From: Desulforhabdus amnigena
GTDB taxonomy: Bacteria; Desulfobacterota; Syntrophobacteria; Syntrophobacterales; Syntrophobacteraceae
NCBI RefSeq assembly: GCF_027925305.1
Contig: NZ_BSDR01000001.1
Location: forward strand, 3,614,501 to 3,678,500
Length of the DNA stretch: 64,000 bases
Reading direction: 5' to 3'
Shown in pieces: positions 2,340 through 26,334 of the stretch. The position numbers were made by a program, and so were the translations under genes. The first letter of the stretch is position 1. Every line of letters starts with the position of its first letter. The notes beneath the pieces were generated by a model, which worked only from the letters and a program-made list of their open reading frames with translations, was not told the origin of the DNA and made no database searches.

Positions 2340-3595
2340 CAGGGCAATCGCATGACTTTCGTTGTGAAATCAAATTAATAGCTGCATTCTCCGCTTCGTT
2401 GTTGTATAGAGATAGTCCTTGACATTAATCAGAAAAGATTTGAGAGGAACGATGAGAGCAGGGACTATCATGGAACATTTCTCCGAGCTGGAAGACCCAA
2501 GGAAACACACTAAAAAGATTCGCCACAAGCTGATCGACATCCTCGTTATCGCCATCTGCGGTACTATCTGCGGGGCCGACGACTGGATGGGGATCTCTGA
2601 TTTTGGAAAAGCCAAGTTCAAATGGCTGCGCACTTTCCTTGATCTCCCCAATGGGATTCCCTCTCATGATACTTTTGGCCGGGTGTTTTCCCTGATCCGC
2701 CCCGAGAAATTCCAAGAATGTTTCGTAAGCTGGATCCAATCGGTTGTCCAGATCTGTGAGGGAGAGATTGTACCCATTGACGGAAAGACGCTGCGCCGCT
2801 CCCACGACTCCAAGTCCAACACTGCGGCCATCCACATGGTCAGTGCCTGGGCCAATAGGAACCGACTGGTGTTGGGGCAGGTAAAAACGGAGAAGAAATC
2901 CAATGAGATCACTGCCATCCCGGAGCTTCTCAAGGTCCTCGATGTCCATGGGTGCATCGTGACCATCGATGCCATGGGTTGCCAGAAGAAGATCGCCGGA
3001 CAGATCGTCGAGCAGGGAGGCGATTACGTGCTGGGGCTGAAAGGAAACCAGGGCACTCTGCTCGATGCGGTGGAAAAGACCTTCTCCGAGGCCAAGCAAG
3101 AGGACCTGGATGGCCCGGACTTTGATTTCCTCCAGACGGAGGAGAGCGGTCACGGTCGCCATGAGGTTCGCTCCTATTTCACAACTTCCCTTCTGAATCA
3201 GCTCCCCAATCCTGAGGAATGGAAAGGGCTTCAAACCATTGGAGCCGTCCTCTCCGAGGTGACCCGAAATGAGAAAACCACAATCGAGTGCAGATACTAC
3301 ATCGCGAGCATCGAAAACAACGCCAAGCTCTTTGCCAATGCCGTGCGCTCTCACTGGGGAATCGAGAACTCCTGCCACTGGGTTCTCGACGTAGCGTTTC
3401 GAGAAGACGAGTCGAGGGTCAGGAAAGATCATGCTCCAGAAAACCTTGCCCTCTTGCGCCATATTGCTTTGAATCTCCTCCGTGAAGAAAAGACAGCTAA
3501 AGTCGGGGTGAAAAACAAACGCCTCAAAGCGGGCTGGGATAACCGCTATCTGGCTAAGGTCTTGCTCGGAAAATAAAAGTCATGCGATTGCCCTG
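2340..3595 (+). mobile_element. ISAs1-family insertion sequence, copy 1 (complete, with target duplication)
   Basis: 1256 bp bounded by terminal inverted repeats CAGGGCAATCGCATGACTTT and flanked by a 10-bp direct repeat GGTAAACGGC (2330-2339 and 3596-3605). It carries one transposase. Copy 2 at 8076-9331 is the same length, in opposite orientation, with apparently a single synonymous change (C at 2724, T in copy 2), so the two copies separated recently. Confidence 0.95.
2452..3576 (+). CDS. ISAs1-family DDE transposase, copy 1
   Basis: 374-residue transposase related to the H-repeat (YhhI/YdcC) family. Visible are the N-terminal DDE_Tnp_1-associated domain ([20 protein letters not shown]), first catalytic Asp in [11 protein letters not shown], second Asp in [13 protein letters not shown], the LKGNQG motif and a C-terminal [14 protein letters not shown] helix with the catalytic Glu. 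The ATG at 2452 follows GAGAGGAACG; a longer TTG start at 2419 is possible. The gene appears intact, so the element may still be active. The protein is identical to that of copy 2. Confidence 0.92.
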
Positions 3596-8075: not shown

Positions 8076-9331
8076 CAGGGCAATCGCATGACTTTTATTT
8101 TCCGAGCAAGACCTTAGCCAGATAGCGGTTATCCCAGCCCGCTTTGAGGCGTTTGTTTTTCACCCCGACTTTAGCTGTCTTTTCTTCACGGAGGAGATTC
8201 AAAGCAATATGGCGCAAGAGGGCAAGGTTTTCTGGAGCATGATCTTTCCTGACCCTCGACTCGTCTTCTCGAAACGCTACGTCGAGAACCCAGTGGCAGG
8301 AGTTCTCGATTCCCCAGTGAGAGCGCACGGCATTGGCAAAGAGCTTGGCGTTGTTTTCGATGCTCGCGATGTAGTATCTGCACTCGATTGTGGTTTTCTC
8401 ATTTCGGGTCACCTCGGAGAGGACGGCTCCAATGGTTTGAAGCCCTTTCCATTCCTCAGGATTGGGGAGCTGATTCAGAAGGGAAGTTGTGAAATAGGAG
8501 CGAACCTCATGGCGACCGTGACCGCTCTCCTCCGTCTGGAGGAAATCAAAGTCCGGGCCATCCAGGTCCTCTTGCTTGGCCTCGGAGAAGGTCTTTTCCA
8601 CCGCATCGAGCAGAGTGCCCTGGTTTCCTTTCAGCCCCAGCACGTAATCGCCTCCCTGCTCGACGATCTGTCCGGCGATCTTCTTCTGGCAACCCATGGC
8701 ATCGATGGTCACGATGCACCCATGGACATCGAGGACCTTGAGAAGCTCCGGGATGGCAGTGATCTCATTGGATTTCTTCTCCGTTTTTACCTGCCCCAAC
8801 ACCAGTCGGTTCCTATTGGCCCAGGCACTGACCATGTGGATGGCCGCAGTGTTGGACTTGGAGTCGTGGGAGCGGCGCAGCGTCTTTCCGTCAATGGGTA
8901 CAATCTCTCCCTCACAGATCTGGACAACCGATTGGATCCAGCTTACAAAACATTCTTGGAATTTCTCGGGGCGGATCAGGGAAAACACCCGGCCAAAAGT
9001 ATCATGAGAGGGAATCCCATTGGGGAGATCAAGGAAAGTGCGCAGCCATTTGAACTTGGCTTTTCCAAAATCAGAGATCCCCATCCAGTCGTCGGCCCCG
9101 CAGATAGTACCGCAGATGGCGATAACGAGGATGTCGATCAGCTTGTGGCGAATCTTTTTAGTGTGTTTCCTTGGGTCTTCCAGCTCGGAGAAATGTTCCA
9201 TGATAGTCCCTGCTCTCATCGTTCCTCTCAAATCTTTTCTGATTAATGTCAAGGACTATCTCTATACAACAACGAAGCGGAGAATGCAGCTATTAATTTG
9301 ATTTCACAACGAAAGTCATGCGATTGCCCTG
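8076..9331 (-). mobile_element. ISAs1-family insertion sequence, copy 2 (no target duplication)
   Basis: 1256 bp, inverted copy of the element at 2340-3595 with the same terminal repeats. Its flanks (CAGCCCTCAGAG on the left, CACACAGACCCC on the right) do not match each other, unlike copy 1. This points to a deletion or inversion at one end after insertion. The right end cuts a primase-like gene. Confidence 0.92.
8095..9219 (-). CDS. ISAs1-family DDE transposase, copy 2
   Basis: Same 374-residue protein as the copy at 2452-3576, with the same [10 protein letters not shown] and [10 protein letters not shown] motifs; the only difference seen is one synonymous base. Intact and presumably able to act on both copies in trans. 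The start chosen is the ATG at 9219 behind GAGAGGAACG. Confidence 0.92.
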
Positions 9332-14295: not shown

Positions 14296-15104
14296 GGTTC
14301 TGTTGACATTTGGGTTCTAATTAACAGATGTCAACAGCACTACTACAAGATGAAACATGGTTGAAGATCCTCCAATTCCTTCGCTCCTGTGTGGATGTTT
14401 ACGTAGGAGAAGAAGGTGATTGCCGTCTTTTCATTGAGGCACTCCTTTGGATTACACGAAGTGGTGCTCAGTGGAGACTGCTCCCGGAGAAATTCGGTAA
14501 CTGGAACAGTGTCTATAAACGATTCGCCCGCTGGTGTAACAAGGGTATCTTCTCCAGAATGCACGAGCATTTCATAGATGATCCCGATATGGAGAACTTC
14601 ATGTTTGACAGCACCATTGTTCGTGCCCATCCCTGTGCTGCCGGAGCCCTCAAAAGATCCGGTGGACAAGAGACACAGGCTCTCGGGCGCAGCCGAGGAG
14701 GTTTTTCCACCAAGATCCACGTAGCGGTAGATGGCTTGGGAAATCCCCTGAGGTTCATTCTCACTCCCGGTCAGAAGAGTGACATCGAACAGGGACCGGC
14801 TCTTATCGAGGGTTTCACCTTCGCTCATGCACTGGGAGACAAGGGCTATGATTCGGATGCCTTCGTCCAGGCGATCACCCAATCTGGAGCTACTGCTGTG
14901 ATTCCACCCCGGTCCAATCGCAAAGAGCCCCGTGAATACGACCAATGCCGCTACCGCGAACGACATCTGATCGAGTGCTTTATGAGCAAGATCAAACATT
15001 TCAGACGCATCTTCTCCAGATTCGACAAGCTCGACAGAAGCTTCTTGGGCTTTCTTGGCTTTGTCGCAGCTCTCATCTGGTTGAGGTGAAATGTCAACAG
15101 AACC
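14296..15104 (+). mobile_element. IS5-family insertion sequence (IS427-like), complete
   Basis: 809 bp with perfect terminal repeats GGTTCTGTTGACATTT / AAATGTCAACAGAACC, flanked by TA on both sides. It contains one transposase gene. Confidence 0.85.
14328..15089 (+). CDS. IS5-family DDE transposase
   Basis: 253 residues in a single frame. N-terminal DUF4096-type domain ([20 protein letters not shown]), then catalytic Asp in [17 protein letters not shown], Asp in [12 protein letters not shown] and Glu in [22 protein letters not shown]. Many IS427-group relatives split this gene in two frames; here it is fused and complete. Confidence 0.93.
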
Positions 15105-17738: not shown

Positions 17739-17767
17739 GCCGCGCGTGGCCAGGCCACGCGCGGCTT
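17739..17767 (-). repeat. Hairpin overlapping the metF stop codon
   Basis: AGCCGCGCGTGG-CCAGG-CCACGCGCGGCT, 12 perfect pairs directly at the metF stop, without a T run. Probably an mRNA 3' stabiliser or a remnant terminator. Confidence 0.6.
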
Positions 17768-18725
17768 AACTCTTGTACTTGGGCCGTTCTTTGTCCAGGC
17801 CGGCCTTCTTGAGCACCTCGGGGATAATTTCTTCCCAGGCGACGGCCATGATGTGAACGCCGTGGACGCCTGGAATCTCCATGCACTGGTGGATCTCTTC
17901 CACGGCCATGTTCACGGCTTCTTCACGGACCTTGATGATCCGCTCTTTCTTGTCGGAAACCGTATCGGCCGCCTTTTGCAGCCGCTCGACCTTCTCATTG
18001 GGTACGATCACGCCGGCGACCTTGTCCCGCATGTACTTGGCCATGCCGATGCTCTTGATGGGGATGATGCCGGCCATGATATGGCACTTCTCATGGAGAC
18101 CGCGGTTTCTCACGTCTTCCATGTACTTTTTGAAGATATCCATGGCGTAAACCGGCTGGCTCTGGACAAACTGCGCCCCGGCCTTGATCTTCTTGGCCAG
18201 CCTGGTGACGCGAAATTCCATGGGGTGTCCGAACGGGTTGATCGCCGCGCCGACGAAGAGGTGCGGTGGGTCGGTTTCCAGTTCCTCACCGTTCATGAAA
18301 CGACCTTCACGCAACCCCACCAGGCATTGGATGAGCTGCATCGAATCGAGATCGTAGACATTCTTTGCCCCGGGATGGTTGCCCATGGTCTGATGGTCGC
18401 CGGAGAGGGCCAGGACGTTCATGACGCCGAAAGCGGCCGCGCCCAGCACGTCGGCCTGGATGGCCAGGCGGTTCCGGTCCCGGGTGACGATCTGGATGAC
18501 CGGGTCCATTTCCATTTGTTTGAGCATGATTCCCGTGGCAATGGAGGACATGCGCACTACCGCCGTCTGGTTGTCCGTTATATTGAAGGCGTCGCAATAG
18601 GGCTTGATGAGCTGTGCCATCTCCCGCAGGTGCACGGTGTCCACGCCCCGCTTGGGGCCCAGTTCACCGGTGACGGCAAAAGTGCCTTCGTTCAGGACTC
18701 GTTCGAGATTACTCTGCACCGACAT
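17766..18725 (-). CDS. metF: Methylenetetrahydrofolate reductase MetF
   Basis: 319 residues. FAD-dependent TIM-barrel enzyme that reduces methylene-THF to methyl-THF in the methyl branch of the Wood-Ljungdahl pathway. Visible are VTGELGPKRG at the N-terminus, NITDNQTAVVRMSS, MNVLALSGDHQ and VQSQPVYAMDIFKKYM, all at family-typical positions. AAGGAGG stands six bases before the ATG. It overlaps metV by 17 bp and is the last gene of the hdrCBA-mvhD-metV-metF operon. With MetV it should receive electrons from the Hdr/MvhD module rather than directly from NAD(P)H, as proposed for acetogens. Physiological direction (fixation or oxidation) is not shown by sequence. Confidence 0.93.
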   Translation of the reverse strand: MSVQSNLERVLNEGTFAVTGELGPKRGVDTVHLREMAQLIKPYCDAFNITDNQTAVVRMSSIATGIMLKQMEMDPVIQIVTRDRNRLAIQADVLGAAAFGVMNVLALSGDHQTMGNHPGAKNVYDLDSMQLIQCLVGLREGRFMNGEELETDPPHLFVGAAINPFGHPMEFRVTRLAKKIKAGAQFVQSQPVYAMDIFKKYMEDVRNRGLHEKCHIMAGIIPIKSIGMAKYMRDKVAGVIVPNEKVERLQKAADTVSDKKERIIKVREEAVNMAVEEIHQCMEIPGVHGVHIMAVAWEEIIPEVLKKAGLDKERPKYKS

Positions 18726-19404
18726 CGGCCGCCTCCTTCTTCAACAGATGATCCTGGACCAGTTTGCGTGGTCCGCCGTCACGGGCACTGACCCAGTTCT
18801 TGGCCGGAATGACCTCATCGAGCAACTCGAGCCGCCCCTGGGCCTTGAGCCGGTCATAGATCAGCTGCCAACCGCAGGCGATATCCGGCCGCACTTCGCA
18901 CTTGCCGTTTTCACTGCCGCCGCACGGCCCGTTGAGGAGGGACTTGGAACAGCGGGCAATGGGGCAGATGCCCCCGGTGAGATGCAGGACACAGTCGCCG
19001 CACATGAGGCAGCGCTCCGTGAACATCCCCGGTTCATCCACCACGCCGATAAAGGTGGTGTTCAAACCCGGAAGGACGACCTTTTCCGGCCACTTTTCAT
19101 TGGTAAACTGAACTCCGGCGCCGCAGGCGATGGAGAGCACCGCGTCGGCCCAGTCGATTTGCTCGGCCGCGGAAACGAAATATTCGTGCTCGCACTGCCG
19201 CTCGATGCCGCCGTTCTTGATCTCTATGTCCACGCCTTCCTGAGTGGCCTTCATGCGCAACATCGAGGCCAGAATTTCCGCTTCCTTATTGCCGCCCTCG
19301 TGGCAAACCGCCACGCAGGTATTGCATCCGAAGACCAGGACCTTTTTGTAGCCCTTGATCATTTCCCATATTTCTTCCAACGGCTTCTGTTGACCGACAA
19401 TCAT
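18709..19404 (-). CDS. metV: MetV, zinc/iron-sulfur partner of MetF
   Basis: 231 residues of the methylene-THF reductase C-terminal (MetV) family. Cys-rich motifs: FGCNTCVAVCHEGG near residue 26, SIACGAGVQFTN, and RCLMCGDCVLHLTGGICPIA followed by NGPCGGSENGKCEV. In acetogens MetV binds MetF and carries Fe-S and zinc sites that pass electrons to it. The ribosome site AGGAG contains the stop codon of mvhD, so the genes are tightly coupled. Start ATG 19404. Confidence 0.9.
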   Translation of the reverse strand: MIVGQQKPLEEIWEMIKGYKKVLVFGCNTCVAVCHEGGNKEAEILASMLRMKATQEGVDIEIKNGGIERQCEHEYFVSAAEQIDWADAVLSIACGAGVQFTNEKWPEKVVLPGLNTTFIGVVDEPGMFTERCLMCGDCVLHLTGGICPIARCSKSLLNGPCGGSENGKCEVRPDIACGWQLIYDRLKAQGRLELLDEVIPAKNWVSARDGGPRKLVQDHLLKKEAADVGAE

Positions 19405-19410
19405 ATTGAC

Positions 19411-19926
19411 CTACTCCTTCCCGGGGCGTTTTTTTCGCGCTGCCAGCCAAATCGGAGAAGGACCCAGCCTCTGGATCTTCTCCGTGAACTCCGTACAGAT
19501 CTCCGCCCATCTCGGACCCATGGCCGCCGAGAGGTTGTACATTTCCACGCGCCGGGGGTCTATGCCGACCTGGGGCAACAAGGTCTTGAGGTTCTCGACT
19601 CTTCTCTTGGCATTTGCATTTCCTTCCAGGAAATGACATTGTCCGGGCAGTCACCCAGCAACGAAAACGCCGTCCACCCCCCTTTCGAACGCTCGTAAAA
19701 TGTAAATGGCATCCAGCTTGCCCGTGCAGGGAAGCCTGATGATTTTCACGTTCGTCGGGTAGGAAAGCCGCATCACTCCGGCCAGGTCCGCTGCCGCGAA
19801 GGCGCAGTAGTGGCAGGCGAAGGCCAGGATATTGGGTTCCCAGTCCGGCGGAATTTCTTGCGGCTTCTCGACGGAGGAAAGTTCTTCCTCCGGCGCCACC
19901 GCAACTGCTTGTTCAGCCATGGCCAT
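19411..19926 (-). CDS. mvhD: MvhD-type Fe-S electron transfer subunit, probable selenoprotein (Sec92)
   Basis: 171 residues if the TGA at 19653-19651 is read as selenocysteine. Before it: FACHYCAFAAADLAG, PCTGKLDA and GVDGVFVAG; after it: LPGQCHFLEGNANAKRRV and a full family-like C-terminus to TAG 19411. Other family members have Cys at this point (VAGCxxGxCHF), and Sec is known in methanogen VhuD. Right after the TGA the RNA can form a SECIS-like hairpin: CATTTCC/GGAAATG with a 5-base loop, starting 15 bases downstream. AAGGAGG precedes ATG 19926. The protein links a hydrogenase or other donor to HdrA in electron bifurcation. A plain stop would leave 91 residues. Confidence 0.85.
19617..19653 (-). 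promoter_or_regulatory. Candidate bacterial SECIS element in mvhD
   Basis: TGA (19653-19651), 15-base spacer, stem CATTTCC (19635-19629), loop TGGAA, stem GGAAATG (19623-19617). Position and size fit bacterial SECIS hairpins, which lie just 3' of the UGA inside the coding region. Confidence 0.6.
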
Positions 19927-20055
19927 TCTCAATCCTCCTTATGATATGGCAACAACTATTCATCTGTCGATTTAGATAACTTTTTTAAGGCTTGTTGGAA
20001 TCTGAATATCCTCACCGGGATACACCCGGAGTTTGCCTCGGACTCACAGACCTCT

Positions 20056-23000
20056 CTAGGCCCTGGCATCGGCCAGAGCGTCAATCATGGCCAGAATCTG
20101 CTCATCACGGAAGTTGTTGACCTGAAATGCTTTGGCCGGACAGACGCCGGCGCAGATGCCGCACCCCATGCATTTGACCTCGTTGTGCCTGACCTTGCCG
20201 TCCTCGTCGATGTAGGGTGAACCGTACGGGCAGACCCGGAAGCACGTCAGGCAGGACATGCAGATGTCCGGATTGTGCTTGGCGATGATGCCGGAAACGG
20301 CCAGTTTGTCGTGGGACAGAACCACCCCCGCACGGCCGGCAGCGGCCAGGGCCTGGGTGATGGTTTCGTCCAGGTTTTTGGGAGCATGGGCCAGTCCGCA
20401 GACGAAGAGACCTTCACTGGGGAAATCCACCGGGCGAAGTTTGACATGGGCTTCGAGAAAGTACTCGTCAATGTTGCGGGTGACTTTGAACATCTCCCCG
20501 ACCTTGTGGGTGTCGGGATGGGGCCGCAGACCGGTGGAGAGGACCAGCCAGTCGGCGTCCAGCACGAGGTCCCGGTTGAGCATGTAGTCGTAGACCCGGA
20601 CCTTCAGCTTGTTGCCCGCCATCTCCACTTCCGGTTTGCGCTCGGGCATGAACCGGACGAAGACCACCCCCAGCTCACGGGCCTTGAAATAGTAGTCTTC
20701 CCGCAGACCGTACGTCCGGATATCGCGGTACAGAATGACGACCTGGGCCCGTGGGTTCTTTTCCTTGATGGCGATGGCGTTTTTAATGGCGTCCTGGCAG
20801 CAGATCCGCGAACAGTAGTTGACCGGTTCTTCGCGCGACCCTACACACTGGATCATGACGTACCGTTCGCCGGCTTTGGGGCCGTCGCCTGTAGCCAGCC
20901 TCTTTTCCAGGGTCCGCTGAGTGATGATGTGGTCGCTCTGCCCCCAGCGGTAGTCGGATTCCGTGGGCTGATACTCGGTGCCCCCAGTGGCCAGGATGAT
21001 GGCTCCATGCTCGAAAGCTGTGCCGTCAGCGAGCTTTGTGCTGAAGTTTCCGACAAAGCCGTCGGTGGATTTCACCTCCGTTCCGGTATGGACATGGATC
21101 CTGGGATGCTTGCCGACCTTCTCGACGGTCATCTTGACGAAGGCCTGTACGTCGCTGCCGTCCAGGGTGCGGTAAACGTTCCGGGCCAGCCCGCCCAGCT
21201 CTGCCTGCTGCTCCACGATATGGACATCAAACCCCTGGTCGGCCAGGGAGAGGGCCGCCGTCATTCCGGCCACGCCGCCGCCGATGACCATGGCCGCCGG
21301 AGTCACGCTCACGGAGTCCGTTTTCACGGGCTGGAGCAGCCTGGCCTTGGCGATGTTCATCTTGACGATTTCGATGGCCTTCCTGGTTGCCTCTTCCTTC
21401 CGGCCCATGTGGCACCAGGAACACTGTTCGCGGATGTCGGCCAGTTCGAAGAGGTACTTGTTCAGGCCGGCATCGCGAATGGTATCCATGAAGAGGGGGT
21501 TGTGTGTACGGGGGGTGCAGGAGGCCACGACCACCCGGTTCAGGTTGTGTTCCCGGACCAACTCCTTGATCTTTTCCTGCTGGTCCTGGGCACAGGCGTA
21601 GAGAGTGTTGCTCGCGTACACCACGCCCGGCTGATCCTTGACCGCCTCTACCACCTTTTGTACGTCTATGGTCTGAGCGATATTGATGCCGCAGTGACAG
21701 ACAAAGACCCCGATGCGAGGCTCTTCGCCGGTAACGTCCCTTTCCGGGGGGAGTTCCTTGTGGACGATCTCCGTGCCCCGTGCCTCACCCAGGAGGGACA
21801 TGGCCGCGCCGGCCACGGCGCTGCCCTGCATGACCGTCTCAGGGATGTCTTTTGGCCCCTGAAAGATACCGGTCACATACATGCCCGGACGGCTGGTGTT
21901 CACCGGTTCGAACTGGGTGGTCCTGGCGAAGCGGTGCTCATTGAGTTCAATGCCGAAAGTACGGGCGAAGTCGCCCACGTCCGCATGGGGCTGGAAACCG
22001 ATGGAGAGGACTACCAGGTCGAAGACTTCGTCCACCAGCGTCCCGTCTTCATTGGCGTAGCGCAGAATCAGGCTGCCCGTGGCCGGATCTTCCCGGACCG
22101 CGGAAATCATGGCCCGCTGGTACCGCACGTTGTACTGGTTCTTGGCCCGGTCCACGTAGCGATCGAAATCCTTCCCGAAGGCCCGCATTTCCATGTAAAA
22201 AATGGTGGGCTCGATGTTGCCGTCGTGTTCCTTGGCGATGATGGCCTGTTTGGTCGCATACATACAGCAGACCGAGGAACACCACGGGTTGGCGTTGTGC
22301 TGATCCCGGGAACCCACGCACTGAATCCAGGCCACCTTCCCGGGATGGTGCCCATCGCTGGGTCGTTTGATCTCTCCCTTGTACGGACCGGAAGCGGAGA
22401 GAATGCGCTCGAACTGGACTGAGGTCACCACGTTGGGCCAGCGGCCGAAACCGAGTTCGCCCCGGACCCTGGGGTTGTACCGATCCAGACCCGGAGCCAG
22501 GATGACGGCCCCGACATTGAGTTCCAGTATCTTCTCCGTATCCTCGTAATTGATGGCGTGGGACGGGCAGAACTTTTCACAGGCCCGGCACTTACCCTTT
22601 TGAAAATAGAGGCAGTTTTCGCGGTCGATGACACGGGTGTTGGGTACCGCCTGGGGGAACAGGGAAAAGATAGCCTTGCGAGTGGTCAGGCCCTGTTCGT
22701 ATTCACTGGTGACCTTCTTGGGGCATTTCTGTTCACAGATGCCGCAGCCCGTGCACTTGTCCGGATCTACATAGCGCGGCGGCACCTTGACCGTCACCTT
22801 GAAATCCCCCGGCTCGCCTTCCACGGACACCACTTCCGCCAGAGTGTGGATGTCTATGTTCATGTGGCGGCCCACTTCGACCATCTTGGGTGAGATCATG
22901 CACATGGCGCAGTCGCCCGTGGGGAAGGTCTTGTCGAGCATGACCATGGTCCCGCCGATGGACGAGTTCCTCTCGACCATGTGCACCTTGAATCCGCTGT

Positions 23001-23097
23001 CGGCCAGGTCCAGGGCGGACTGCATCGCACCGATGCCGCCGCCGACGATGACGACGGAACCGCGCTTATGGGTCTGGGGAGACGTGTTTTCACTCAT
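20056..23097 (-). CDS. hdrA: HdrA-like FAD/iron-sulfur protein, double length
   Basis: 1013 residues, whereas HdrA usually has about 650. Part 1 (about 1-450): FAD site VIVGGGIGAMQSALDLADSG, Cys motif TGDCAMCMISP, ferredoxin motifs CTGCGICEQKCPKK and CRACEKFCPSHA. Part 2 (about 460-1013): VFVCHCGINIAQ, second FAD site MVIGGGVAGMTAALSLADQG, CVGSREEPVNYCSRICCQ and two C-terminal clusters CMSCLTCFRVCPYGSP and CMGCGICAGVCPAKA. HdrA is the bifurcating flavin subunit of heterodisulfide reductase-type complexes. The order hdrC-hdrB-hdrA-mvhD-metV-metF says the complex drives methylene-THF reduction or oxidation. It overlaps hdrB by 4 bp. Confidence 0.93.
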   Translation of the reverse strand: MSENTSPQTHKRGSVVIVGGGIGAMQSALDLADSGFKVHMVERNSSIGGTMVMLDKTFPTGDCAMCMISPKMVEVGRHMNIDIHTLAEVVSVEGEPGDFKVTVKVPPRYVDPDKCTGCGICEQKCPKKVTSEYEQGLTTRKAIFSLFPQAVPNTRVIDRENCLYFQKGKCRACEKFCPSHAINYEDTEKILELNVGAVILAPGLDRYNPRVRGELGFGRWPNVVTSVQFERILSASGPYKGEIKRPSDGHHPGKVAWIQCVGSRDQHNANPWCSSVCCMYATKQAIIAKEHDGNIEPTIFYMEMRAFGKDFDRYVDRAKNQYNVRYQRAMISAVREDPATGSLILRYANEDGTLVDEVFDLVVLSIGFQPHADVGDFARTFGIELNEHRFARTTQFEPVNTSRPGMYVTGIFQGPKDIPETVMQGSAVAGAAMSLLGEARGTEIVHKELPPERDVTGEEPRIGVFVCHCGINIAQTIDVQKVVEAVKDQPGVVYASNTLYACAQDQQEKIKELVREHNLNRVVVASCTPRTHNPLFMDTIRDAGLNKYLFELADIREQCSWCHMGRKEEATRKAIEIVKMNIAKARLLQPVKTDSVSVTPAAMVIGGGVAGMTAALSLADQGFDVHIVEQQAELGGLARNVYRTLDGSDVQAFVKMTVEKVGKHPRIHVHTGTEVKSTDGFVGNFSTKLADGTAFEHGAIILATGGTEYQPTESDYRWGQSDHIITQRTLEKRLATGDGPKAGERYVMIQCVGSREEPVNYCSRICCQDAIKNAIAIKEKNPRAQVVILYRDIRTYGLREDYYFKARELGVVFVRFMPERKPEVEMAGNKLKVRVYDYMLNRDLVLDADWLVLSTGLRPHPDTHKVGEMFKVTRNIDEYFLEAHVKLRPVDFPSEGLFVCGLAHAPKNLDETITQALAAAGRAGVVLSHDKLAVSGIIAKHNPDICMSCLTCFRVCPYGSPYIDEDGKVRHNEVKCMGCGICAGVCPAKAFQVNNFRDEQILAMIDALADARA

Positions 23098-23969
23098 ATC
23101 AGTTCCAACTCCTTCAAGAGTCCCATGGAGTCAACAAAATGCCGGTCAATCTGGAGGTCCCTGGGGGAAAGGCCCATGGCTACCCCCACCAGTTCGGTGA
23201 TGAAATAGACCGGCAGTTTCCGGTCGATCCCGTATTTCTCGACCACCTGGTTCTGGTAAGCGTCCAAATTGAGCTGGCACATGGGACATGTGCAGACAAA
23301 ACAGTTGGCCCCCCTGGCCAAGGCGTCCTTCATGATCTTGGACATGAGCTTGAGAGCCGCATCGGGGTCGTTGACCGAAGCGGACGCGCCGCAGCAGTCG
23401 GTCTTGTAACTCCAGTCCAGCGTTTCAGCGCCGAGGGCCTTGCAGATGATCTCCATGCCCTGAGGATTTTCCACGTCATCGGGCACCGGGACGTCCAGTG
23501 GGAACCGTGTCTGAAGACAGCCGTAGTAGCAGGCCGCTTTGAGGCCGGTCAGCTTCCTGGATGCCTTCTGAACCAAATCCCCGGATTCGGCCAAAGGGCG
23601 AAGCACCTCGAGGATGCTCATGATCTGGACACTGTTCCGGACTTTCTTTTGCAGCTCCGCATTGATCTCCGCCAGCAGCTTGTCGTTTCCTTCCAGTCTT
23701 TTCTGAGCCACCAGCATGCGGCTGTAGCAGGCCGAACAGGGAATAACCATGGACGAGAGTCCGGAGGCGTCGGCCAGGCCCAGGTTCCTGGCCGGCAGGG
23801 CAATGGCCAGCCATTCATCGGTCTTGGCCGCCGAAGTGGCGCCGCAACAGTTCCAGTCCTCGAGTTCCTGAAGGTTTACTCCCAATTTTCCCAGCACAAT
23901 CTTCGTCTGGGCGTCGTAAAGCTCGCTGGAGGAGCGCAACGAGCAACCAGGATAGTAGAGGATGTCCAT
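23094..23969 (-). CDS. hdrB: HdrB-like subunit with two CCG domains
   Basis: 291 residues. Begins MDILYYPGCSLRSSS and has two CCG cysteine blocks: NCCGAT with IPCSACYSR, and ACYYGCLQTRF / DCCGASASV / CTCPMCQLN. In HdrB these bind the two unusual [4Fe-4S] clusters that reduce a disulfide. Here no CoM-S-S-CoB is expected, and the partner is likely MetFV. Ribosome site GGGAG before ATG 23969; stop overlaps the hdrA start. Confidence 0.93.
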   Translation of the reverse strand: MDILYYPGCSLRSSSELYDAQTKIVLGKLGVNLQELEDWNCCGATSAAKTDEWLAIALPARNLGLADASGLSSMVIPCSACYSRMLVAQKRLEGNDKLLAEINAELQKKVRNSVQIMSILEVLRPLAESGDLVQKASRKLTGLKAACYYGCLQTRFPLDVPVPDDVENPQGMEIICKALGAETLDWSYKTDCCGASASVNDPDAALKLMSKIMKDALARGANCFVCTCPMCQLNLDAYQNQVVEKYGIDRKLPVYFITELVGVAMGLSPRDLQIDRHFVDSMGLLKELELI

Positions 23970-23972
23970 GAT

Positions 23973-24620
23973 CTATCTCCCACCACGTTCTTCAGCGACC
24001 TTGACGCGGTCGGCTTTTTTCAATTTTGCCTTCTTGTAGAGGCGCCTGATTTCATCCAGACCTTTGACTTTCTGCAGGCCGAAGTGCAGGCGCCGGTTCT
24101 TTTTCATGGTCAGGCCCAGCTCGGCCTGCTCCTTCATCTCCTGGTACAGGCCTTTGAAATTGCGGTTTTTCAAATCCTTCAGATTGATCTGGAGTTCGTA
24201 CATGCCCATGAACTCGAGTTCGTTGAGCCGGCCGAAATGACCGGTGGCCGTGGTAAAGGCCGAGTGGAAGGCGGCAACCTTGGTGCTGAGGGGATCGAGA
24301 TGCCGCTCCTTGGACATCTGTTTGAGCGTCTCGTTGATCCGGGCCGTCTGGATATTGTTGGGGCATCGGGTTCCGCAGGTGTAACAGGATACACACCGCC
24401 AGACGAGCAGGTTTTCCAGGGCCTGATCCCGGTCTCCCAACAGGATCATCCTGATGAGTCGGTCCGGGGTGACCCCTTGGGTTTCGTCACCCACCGGACA
24501 ACCGGCCGCGCACCGGCGGCACTGATAACAGGCCAGGAGGTTCTGCCCGGAACGTTCCATGACCTCCTCGAGGAAGGACTGGTTCGTGTCGGGCTTGTAT
24601 TCCAGGACCTCAGATATCAT
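23973..24620 (-). CDS. hdrC: HdrC-like iron-sulfur subunit
   Basis: About 215 residues from ATG 24620, which has AAGGAG seven bases upstream; the ATG at 24638 has none. Two ferredoxin-type motifs, CYQCRRCAAGCPVG and CVSCYTCGTRCPNNI, bind [4Fe-4S] clusters that connect HdrA to HdrB. First gene of the operon; only three bases separate it from hdrB. The C-terminal tail is Lys/Arg-rich. Confidence 0.92.
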   Translation of the reverse strand: MISEVLEYKPDTNQSFLEEVMERSGQNLLACYQCRRCAAGCPVGDETQGVTPDRLIRMILLGDRDQALENLLVWRCVSCYTCGTRCPNNIQTARINETLKQMSKERHLDPLSTKVAAFHSAFTTATGHFGRLNELEFMGMYELQINLKDLKNRNFKGLYQEMKEQAELGLTMKKNRRLHFGLQKVKGLDEIRRLYKKAKLKKADRVKVAEERGGR

Positions 24621-24743
24621 ATCTTTCTCCTTGAGCACATTCTCTTGCGCCCTTTCGGCCGGCCCGAGCCTGAAGACTGACAGGGCGATGCAGGTATGGG
24701 TAAATTCTCGTGATCTGATGCGACACCGTCACATTAACTTCCA

Positions 24744-25368: not shown

Positions 25369-26334
25369 ATGCAGGTATCCAAAGAGAAAAAACTTGAGAT
25401 GCTCCGTTCCATGCTCCTCTCTCGCCGGTTTGAAGAGTCCCTTGTGGAGCTTTGCAAAATCCAGGGAAAAATTCCCGGGATGATGATCCTTTGCACGGGG
25501 CAGGAGGCGGTGGGGTCGGGTGTCTGCTCTGCTTTGAATCCGGAAGACGTGATCATCTCCAACCATCGCAGCCATAACCATCTTCTTGCAAAGGGGGCGG
25601 ATCCCAAGGCGCTCATGGCCGAGATCTACGGCAAGAAGACGGGCTGCAACAAAGGCAAGAGCGGAACCTTGCACCTGGCCGTGCCCGAGATCAACGCTCC
25701 CTGTACGAGCACCGTCGTGGGGGGAGGGCTTCCCATTTCCGTTGGTGTGGCCTTCGCTCAGAAATACAAAAATGAAAAGAGTGTGACCGTCTGTCTCTTC
25801 GGAGACGGTGCCGCCGATGAGGGGTCCTTTCATGAGGCTCTGAACCTGGCGAGCCTTTGGGACCTTCCGGTCATCTTTGTTTGTGAGAACAATCTCTATG
25901 CCGGAGCTCAACGTTACGAAGAGCACACAAAGGTGAAGAACATTGCGGATCGGGCGGTGGGCTACGCCATTGCCGGAGAGATCGTCGACGGCAATGATGC
26001 GGTAGCGGTCTTTGAAGCGACTCGAAGAGCCAGGGAACGTGCCGTGTCAGGACAGGGGCCTACCCTCATTGAATGCAAGACCTACCGCTGCAGGGGGCAT
26101 GGGGAGGCCGATCCTCAGCATTACCAGCCCAAGGATGAAATTGCGGAATGGACGGAAAAATGCCCCATCCCAAGGCTTCGTGGCGAGCTGCTCTCGGAGG
26201 GGTGGATCACCGACAAAGAGCTGCAAGAGCTGGAAAAAGAGATCGAAAAGATGGTGGCGGACGCGGTGCGGTTCGCAGAAGAGAGCCCCTGGCCCGACCT
26301 GGAGGAAGCCTTGGAAGATGTGTATGTCTCGTGA
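25369..26334 (+). CDS. Thiamine-diphosphate dehydrogenase E1 alpha subunit (pyruvate/acetoin type)
   Basis: 321 residues. Thiamine-diphosphate motif GDGAADEGSFHEALNLASLW ending in CENN (about 146-173), plus RSHNHLLAKG and GKSGTLHL, which are typical for PdhA/AcoA alpha subunits. It catalyses oxidative decarboxylation of a 2-oxo acid, or acetoin cleavage, with the beta subunit next to it. GGGAGA precedes the ATG. No lipoyl E2 or E3 gene follows, so these must be elsewhere or the pair acts with another acceptor. Substrate cannot be fixed from sequence; the AcoA branch looks as likely as PdhA. Confidence 0.88.
   Translation: MQVSKEKKLEMLRSMLLSRRFEESLVELCKIQGKIPGMMILCTGQEAVGSGVCSALNPEDVIISNHRSHNHLLAKGADPKALMAEIYGKKTGCNKGKSGTLHLAVPEINAPCTSTVVGGGLPISVGVAFAQKYKNEKSVTVCLFGDGAADEGSFHEALNLASLWDLPVIFVCENNLYAGAQRYEEHTKVKNIADRAVGYAIAGEIVDGNDAVAVFEATRRARERAVSGQGPTLIECKTYRCRGHGEADPQHYQPKDEIAEWTEKCPIPRLRGELLSEGWITDKELQELEKEIEKMVADAVRFAEESPWPDLEEALEDVYVS

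Follow-up and report, generated by a model that had tools for sequence, protein, structure and literature searches.

The mvhD gene of the hdr-met operon of Desulforhabdus amnigena is almost certainly a working selenoprotein gene, in which selenocysteine (Sec) would be inserted at an in-frame UGA, codon 92, by means of a hairpin in the coding region downstream, and whose product would act within an HdrABC-MvhD-MetVF complex. The gene lies in the stretch of 64,000 nucleotides under study (the window), part of a genome of one contig of 4.54 Mb. The features concerned are as follows.

19411..19926, minus strand: mvhD (PF02662 FlpD), 171 aa with UGA codon 92 taken as selenocysteine; from read-through and profile match
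19651..19653, minus strand: in-frame UGA (putative Sec) codon 92, equal to the first Cys of GCxxGxC
19617..19635, minus strand: SECIS-type hairpin in the coding region; from comparison of relatives
19934..19940, minus strand: Shine-Dalgarno-like AAGGAGG of mvhD; read from the sequence
18709..19404, minus strand: metV-like gene; PF12225, 128 bits, cut-off 23
17766..18725, minus strand: metF-like gene; PF02219 MTHFR, 116 bits, cut-off 24
20056..23097, minus strand: hdrA-like gene, 1013 aa; two flavin-binding regions and Fe-S motifs
23094..23969, minus strand: hdrB-like gene, CCG domain; NCBIfam match under cut-off
23973..24638, minus strand: hdrC-like gene, 4Fe-4S; NCBIfam match under cut-off

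The frame opens with an ATG at 19926, 7 nt after the AAGGAGG, ends with a TAG at 19411 and, when read through, contains a single TGA at residue 92 (19653-19651, context VAG-U-LPGQCHF), with no further stop or frameshift. An earlier note on this DNA had placed a TGA in frame at the cysteine of VAGCxxGxCHF and claimed an intact MvhD C-terminus behind it, and both claims hold. Residues 33-155 of the product match the whole PF02662 profile (1-123 of 123; 168 bits, cut-off 22.3) and, when the two pieces were searched apart, the part before the TGA matched positions 1-59 (83.1 bits) and the back half alone positions 62-123 (66.5 bits). Structure prediction from nine sequences (mean pLDDT 82.5) gave a fold with TM-scores by target of 0.95-0.97 against four solved MvhD-type chains. 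Weak support for constraint after the UGA comes from substitution rates (NG86): dN is lower than dS there in every pair with estimable dS, dS being saturated in many pairs, and each listed pair has a higher dN after the UGA than before. Reading of the UGA as tryptophan was ruled out, because homologues have Cys in this place and hdrB terminates with TGA. The whole window was also scanned for in-frame UGAs, which gave 168 candidates, 65 of them with a hairpin; the mvhD site itself ranks in the lower half by stability, and the candidates are indistinguishable from chance.

Genes for selenocysteine insertion, on whose presence the earlier note had made its reading depend, are all found in the genome: selA, selB, selD and tRNA-Sec (anticodon TCA), the last confirmed by ARAGORN. 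Searches for selB, selD and tRNA-Sec gave matches in all 14 control genomes too, above the curated cut-off in 2, 2 and 5 of them, respectively. The selD of the genome has an in-frame TGA of its own. It is situated downstream of an mvhD with a TGA at site 41, at a distance of ~0.9 kb (C1:1263371-1266918; L013, L045, L093), next to an mvhD of the Cys type. The genome holds 16 PF02662 matches, six with an in-frame UGA and one of these six with two. Another MvhD gene of the genome, L043 (G000 C1:2737789-2738157), which is not MetV-linked, has TGA at both 41 and 92 and a hairpin after each. Splitting or truncation of the gene by annotation had been foreseen, and table-11 ORF calling indeed yields a 93-aa ORF that stops at the UGA; together with the UGA-bearing six of 16 family matches this means that such genes are easily truncated.

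The hairpin begins where the earlier note had it, 15 bases past the TGA. Its outermost possible pair (19635-19617) follows these 15 spacer bases, and a six-pair core joins 19634-19629 with 19623-19618 around the loop UGGAA (19628-19624). Its stability by itself is unremarkable and its energy does not clearly exceed chance: against dinucleotide shuffles z was -1.44, with 17 of 200 shuffles at least as stable, and against synonymous-codon shuffles z was -0.27, with 37% as stable. In the first set of relatives described below, minimum free energy at site 92 set the 11 UGA rows weakly apart from the 116 Cys rows (p 0.0095), and no difference was seen at site 41 (43 versus 77 rows, p 0.58); because the rows are related, their counts are not independent and no p-value given here is to be taken as a probability. 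No SECIS match was obtained with Rfam families at 18600-20200. RF00031 (SECIS_1) gave no match in the genome, nor in any of the 14 control genomes, E. coli included, and since these controls were silent too the search is uninformative.

It is the comparison with relatives that distinguishes the hairpin. The first set comprised the MvhD genes of 175 loci and the window, and the second was drawn from named genomes and took in 80 more loci, the best 80 of 543 (places with MetV: at least 30 loci and 80 stretches, six in common). Rows were dropped when the bit score was not over 60, when there was a gap at 41 or 92 or when coding stretches were identical; L046, a second copy of the window's mvhD, was also left out of the counts. 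In both sets together all 38 distinct UGA-92 sequences form the six pairs, versus eight of 170 distinct Cys-92 sequences, which supports the earlier assignment of the hairpin as a bacterial SECIS. The 170 come from 119 and 56 distinct Cys-92 rows, a few Cys genes being common to both sets; they include a few doubtful alignments, e.g. L230_2733, and 160 of them have the [FY]..G[NS] peptide. The second set is the fairer test because it was retrieved separately and the stem was defined after viewing the first, and there the counts are 27 of 27 UGA-92 versus three of 56 Cys-92 sequences. The Cys-92 sequences of the first set gave seven of 119, or eight of 116 rows when the [FY]..G peptide was required.

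The six pairs join the His-Phe/Tyr-Leu codons to the Gly-Asn codons, and with the identical peptide H[FY]LEGN the stem is present in 32 of 32 UGA rows versus none of four Cys rows. None of the 38 UGA-92 rows breaks pair 23-33, where 21 have U-A and 17 A-U; a change from U-A to A-U goes with Tyr for Phe in one strand of the stem and with the silent third base of a Gly codon in the opposite strand. The covariation score was reached by none of 500 shuffles and, the remaining five pairs being invariant, it rests on this one pair. Leu-Glu, tied to the loop letters, is found in 33 of 38 UGA rows versus four of 170 Cys rows. Judged by this comparison, the mvhD hairpin is a real signal.

Selenocysteine is not confined to residue 92 in this family. 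Among the 95 rows of MetV-linked MvhD in the first set, 39 have Cys at both sites, 40 appear to have Sec at 41 only and six at 92 only, and ten have Ser, Thr or Ala at 41; the 70 such rows of the second set divide into 30 with Cys at both, 14 with Sec-41 and 26 with Sec-92. Mutual exclusion of the two sites was considered and is not shown by the absence of double rows in the first set (0 of 95), because only about 2.5 are expected; in the second set double-Sec genes were unfindable, since the search patterns need a Cys codon at 41 or at 92. The Sec-41 genes have a signal of their own. Where the peptide Asp-Leu-Ala-Gly is present, the codons for it after Sec-41 read GACCTGGCAGGT in 38 of 42 (first set) and 14 of 16 (second set) genes, e.g. 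L073, L107 and L129, and in Cys-41 genes with the same peptide in one of 46 and none of 50; both sets together give 52 of 58 versus one of 96. MetV-linked MvhDs with Sec-41 thus carry a near-invariant downstream signal different from that of the Sec-92 genes.

In a tree built with the trait columns left out, the mvhD of the window belongs to a supported group of 22 rows (SH-aLRT 98), all Sec-92 and MetV-linked, whose records are Thermodesulfobacteriota, Nitrospirota and, in one case, Proteobacteria (taxa are by record title, most records being metagenome bins). These are at least two phyla, and the stem is kept throughout. Further Sec-92 rows stand elsewhere on the tree, Chloroflexota records among them. 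Many forks are open because the alignment has 104 columns. Among named records, those of Desulfobacterales and Nitrospirota hold the closest MvhD relatives, and the Moorella relative L211 has Cys at both 41 and 92. Two cultured relatives, by record title Desulfosediminicola flagellatus (L183) and Desulforhopalus singaporensis (L189), have the same gene.

Over 160 rows of this tree Sec-92 requires eight changes, two of them forced by well-supported branches, and it could be argued that selenocysteine is inserted at residue 92 and yet is functionally near-neutral, Sec and Cys drifting back and forth. Exchange within the family is in accordance with this: three Sec-to-Cys and three Cys-to-Sec events in FrhD were tabulated in 2006 (PMC1794560), and a single genus has both L150 (UGA) and L167 (TGC), which are nearly identical. 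L167 has kept the six stem pairs and lost the loop UGG, so that its stem looks like a remnant. Such drift sits badly with a supported set of 22 rows from at least two phyla that is uniformly Sec-92 with the stem, and with a stem that also fixes Leu-Glu; we consider it unlikely, although it is the most serious of the alternatives.

Much less probable is a true stop at the UGA, which would yield a 91-residue protein or, if read-through took place rarely, a regulated mixture. UGA does also serve as a stop in this operon, as the end of hdrB demonstrates, but here the protein would end directly after a core strand with half of the FlpD profile gone, and positions 92 and 97, invariant as Cys, would be lost, while the Sec machinery and a conserved stem exist. 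Partial termination at UGA 92 under selenium limitation is possible. A damaged Cys codon or a sequencing error, leaving mvhD broken, would need only one base (TGA is one base from TGC or TGT) in a genome rich in other copies of the family, but the same UGA with the same stem recurs in 37 other distinct sequences, both halves of mvhD are conserved and the frame has no other stop or frameshift, which makes this explanation extremely improbable.

With the UGA read as selenocysteine, the product has five Cys/Sec positions, 38, 41, 67, 92 and 97. The alignment of homologues at residue 92, which had been proposed as a check, shows Cys or Sec there in 226 of 226 rows, as it does at 38, 67 and 97 (all rows in which none of the five sites is empty, duplicates counted), while 14 of the same 226 have Ser, Thr, Ala, Asp or Gly at residue 41. 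From this difference 92 may be a cluster ligand and 41 a neighbor. Solved Hdr complexes show a [2Fe-2S] cluster in the MvhD homologue, close to the flavin of HdrA at which bifurcation takes place (PMC12350162). MvhD forms the electron link to this flavin. That Sec-92 is a ligand of such a cluster in the D. amnigena protein is a tentative proposal, to which we give clearly less than even weight. About as tentative is the wider one in which the Sec-92 selenolate is a cluster ligand and MetVF-linked MvhDs carry a single Sec at either of two sites beside the cluster, 41 and 92, with a separate coding-region signal for each that dictates the local codons. If this is true, nature has tried ligand and non-ligand selenium in one protein. 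If selenium does sit on the cluster, the MetV-linked MvhDs with Sec-92, with Sec-41 and with no Sec are natural comparison sets for measuring what selenium does to a low-energy step of C1 metabolism.

The neighbors of mvhD are those of an Hdr-type MetVF methylene-THF reductase. All of its gene set, in the order hdrC-hdrB-hdrA-mvhD-metV-metF, is present as a six-gene unit on the minus strand (24638-17766; ORFs, Pfam, NCBIfam), which together with PF02662 and the alignment confirms the protein family, residue 92 and operon given in the earlier note. Pfam cut-offs were passed by metF, metV and mvhD, while the hdr names are NCBIfam matches under curated cut-offs; for hdrA the best model is HdrA2, at 960 bits under the model's cut-off of 1100. 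In relatives, too, hdrA, metV and metF adjoin mvhD. A gene for a dehydrogenase E1 component (PF00676, 293 bits) lies at 25369-26334, divergent to the unit, and an IS4/5-type transposase gene (PF13340, PF01609) at 14328-15089, ~2.7 kb off its metF end. The window also contains a perfect inverted repeat of 1256 nt (2340-3595 and 8076-9331, with 4480 nt between the arms), by appearance a mobile element or a recent duplication, with two 345-aa ORFs without Pfam match and also opposite-strand ORFs of 385 aa.

In the mechanism that we propose, SelB with Sec-tRNA would bind the hairpin 16-34 bases past the UGA, selenocysteine would be placed at residue 92 and full-length MvhD produced; MvhD, with its predicted [2Fe-2S] cluster, would hand electrons to or from HdrA, and the predicted HdrABC-MvhD-MetVF complex would act at the methylene-/methyl-THF step. 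Selenium may have a part in the methylene-THF redox step, which the earlier note described as tuning. Two further genes of the genome, dsrA and the CODH/ACS gene cdhC, the latter ~9 kb beyond the window end, point to an anaerobe that combines dissimilatory sulfur metabolism with a Wood-Ljungdahl pathway, and because of these genes the complex may run toward methyl-THF oxidation in this host.

Selenocysteine-containing MvhD is already established, sulfate reducers included, and the mvhD of this locus is a further member of that selenoprotein family. Sec-containing MvhD/FrhD/VhuD were tabulated in 2006 from Syntrophobacter, Syntrophus, Moorella and others, with eight Sec-containing FrhD in Syntrophobacter fumaroxidans (PMC1794560). 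Desulfobacterium autotrophicum has Sec in mvhD1, 2, 3 and 5 (PMC2702500), and Desulfococcus multivorans has one Sec mvhD, with a SECIS (PMC5109826). These Desulfobacterota proteins resemble the present one in belonging to PF02662, in bacterial UGA decoding and in standing beside hdrA-type genes; they differ in being described with hdrA/hdrL, frh/mvh or fdh genes, MetV being unmentioned in the excerpts. A 2026 review lists the family with the motif CxxU, the figure 2 being taken as the number of Sec, and multiple Sec in archaeal FrhD/VhuD (PMC13188914); this motif corresponds to site 41, unlike Sec-92 of mvhD. In PDB chain 9sfi_K, 'F420-non-reducing hydrogenase subunit delta', X (a non-standard or unknown residue) stands at the equivalents of both 41 and 92, which we infer to be Sec. 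VhuD of methanogens is a related protein. Archaeal SECIS elements lie in the untranslated region (PMC11227280), in contrast to the mvhD hairpin, which lies in the coding region just after the UGA.

The closest parallel in gene content is the Hdr-type MetVF of Moorella and Sporomusa, with the same set hdrCBA-mvhD-metVF (PMC9430772). Sporomusa pulldowns linked MvhD, HdrA, HdrB, MetV and MetF; according to the same excerpts no tight complex was purified and assays showed no bifurcation (PMC9430772). No word beginning with 'selen' occurs in that paper, and the Moorella relative has Cys at both sites versus Sec-92 in mvhD. Our searches of open-licence PMC papers turned up no MetV-linked MvhD described with Sec, nor any account of Sec at 92 in one lineage and at 41 in another. 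To the known family the present locus and its relatives add an exact site for the predicted Sec, comparative support for its SECIS, a cross-phylum set of Sec-92 genes in the MetVF operon and the alternative site 41.
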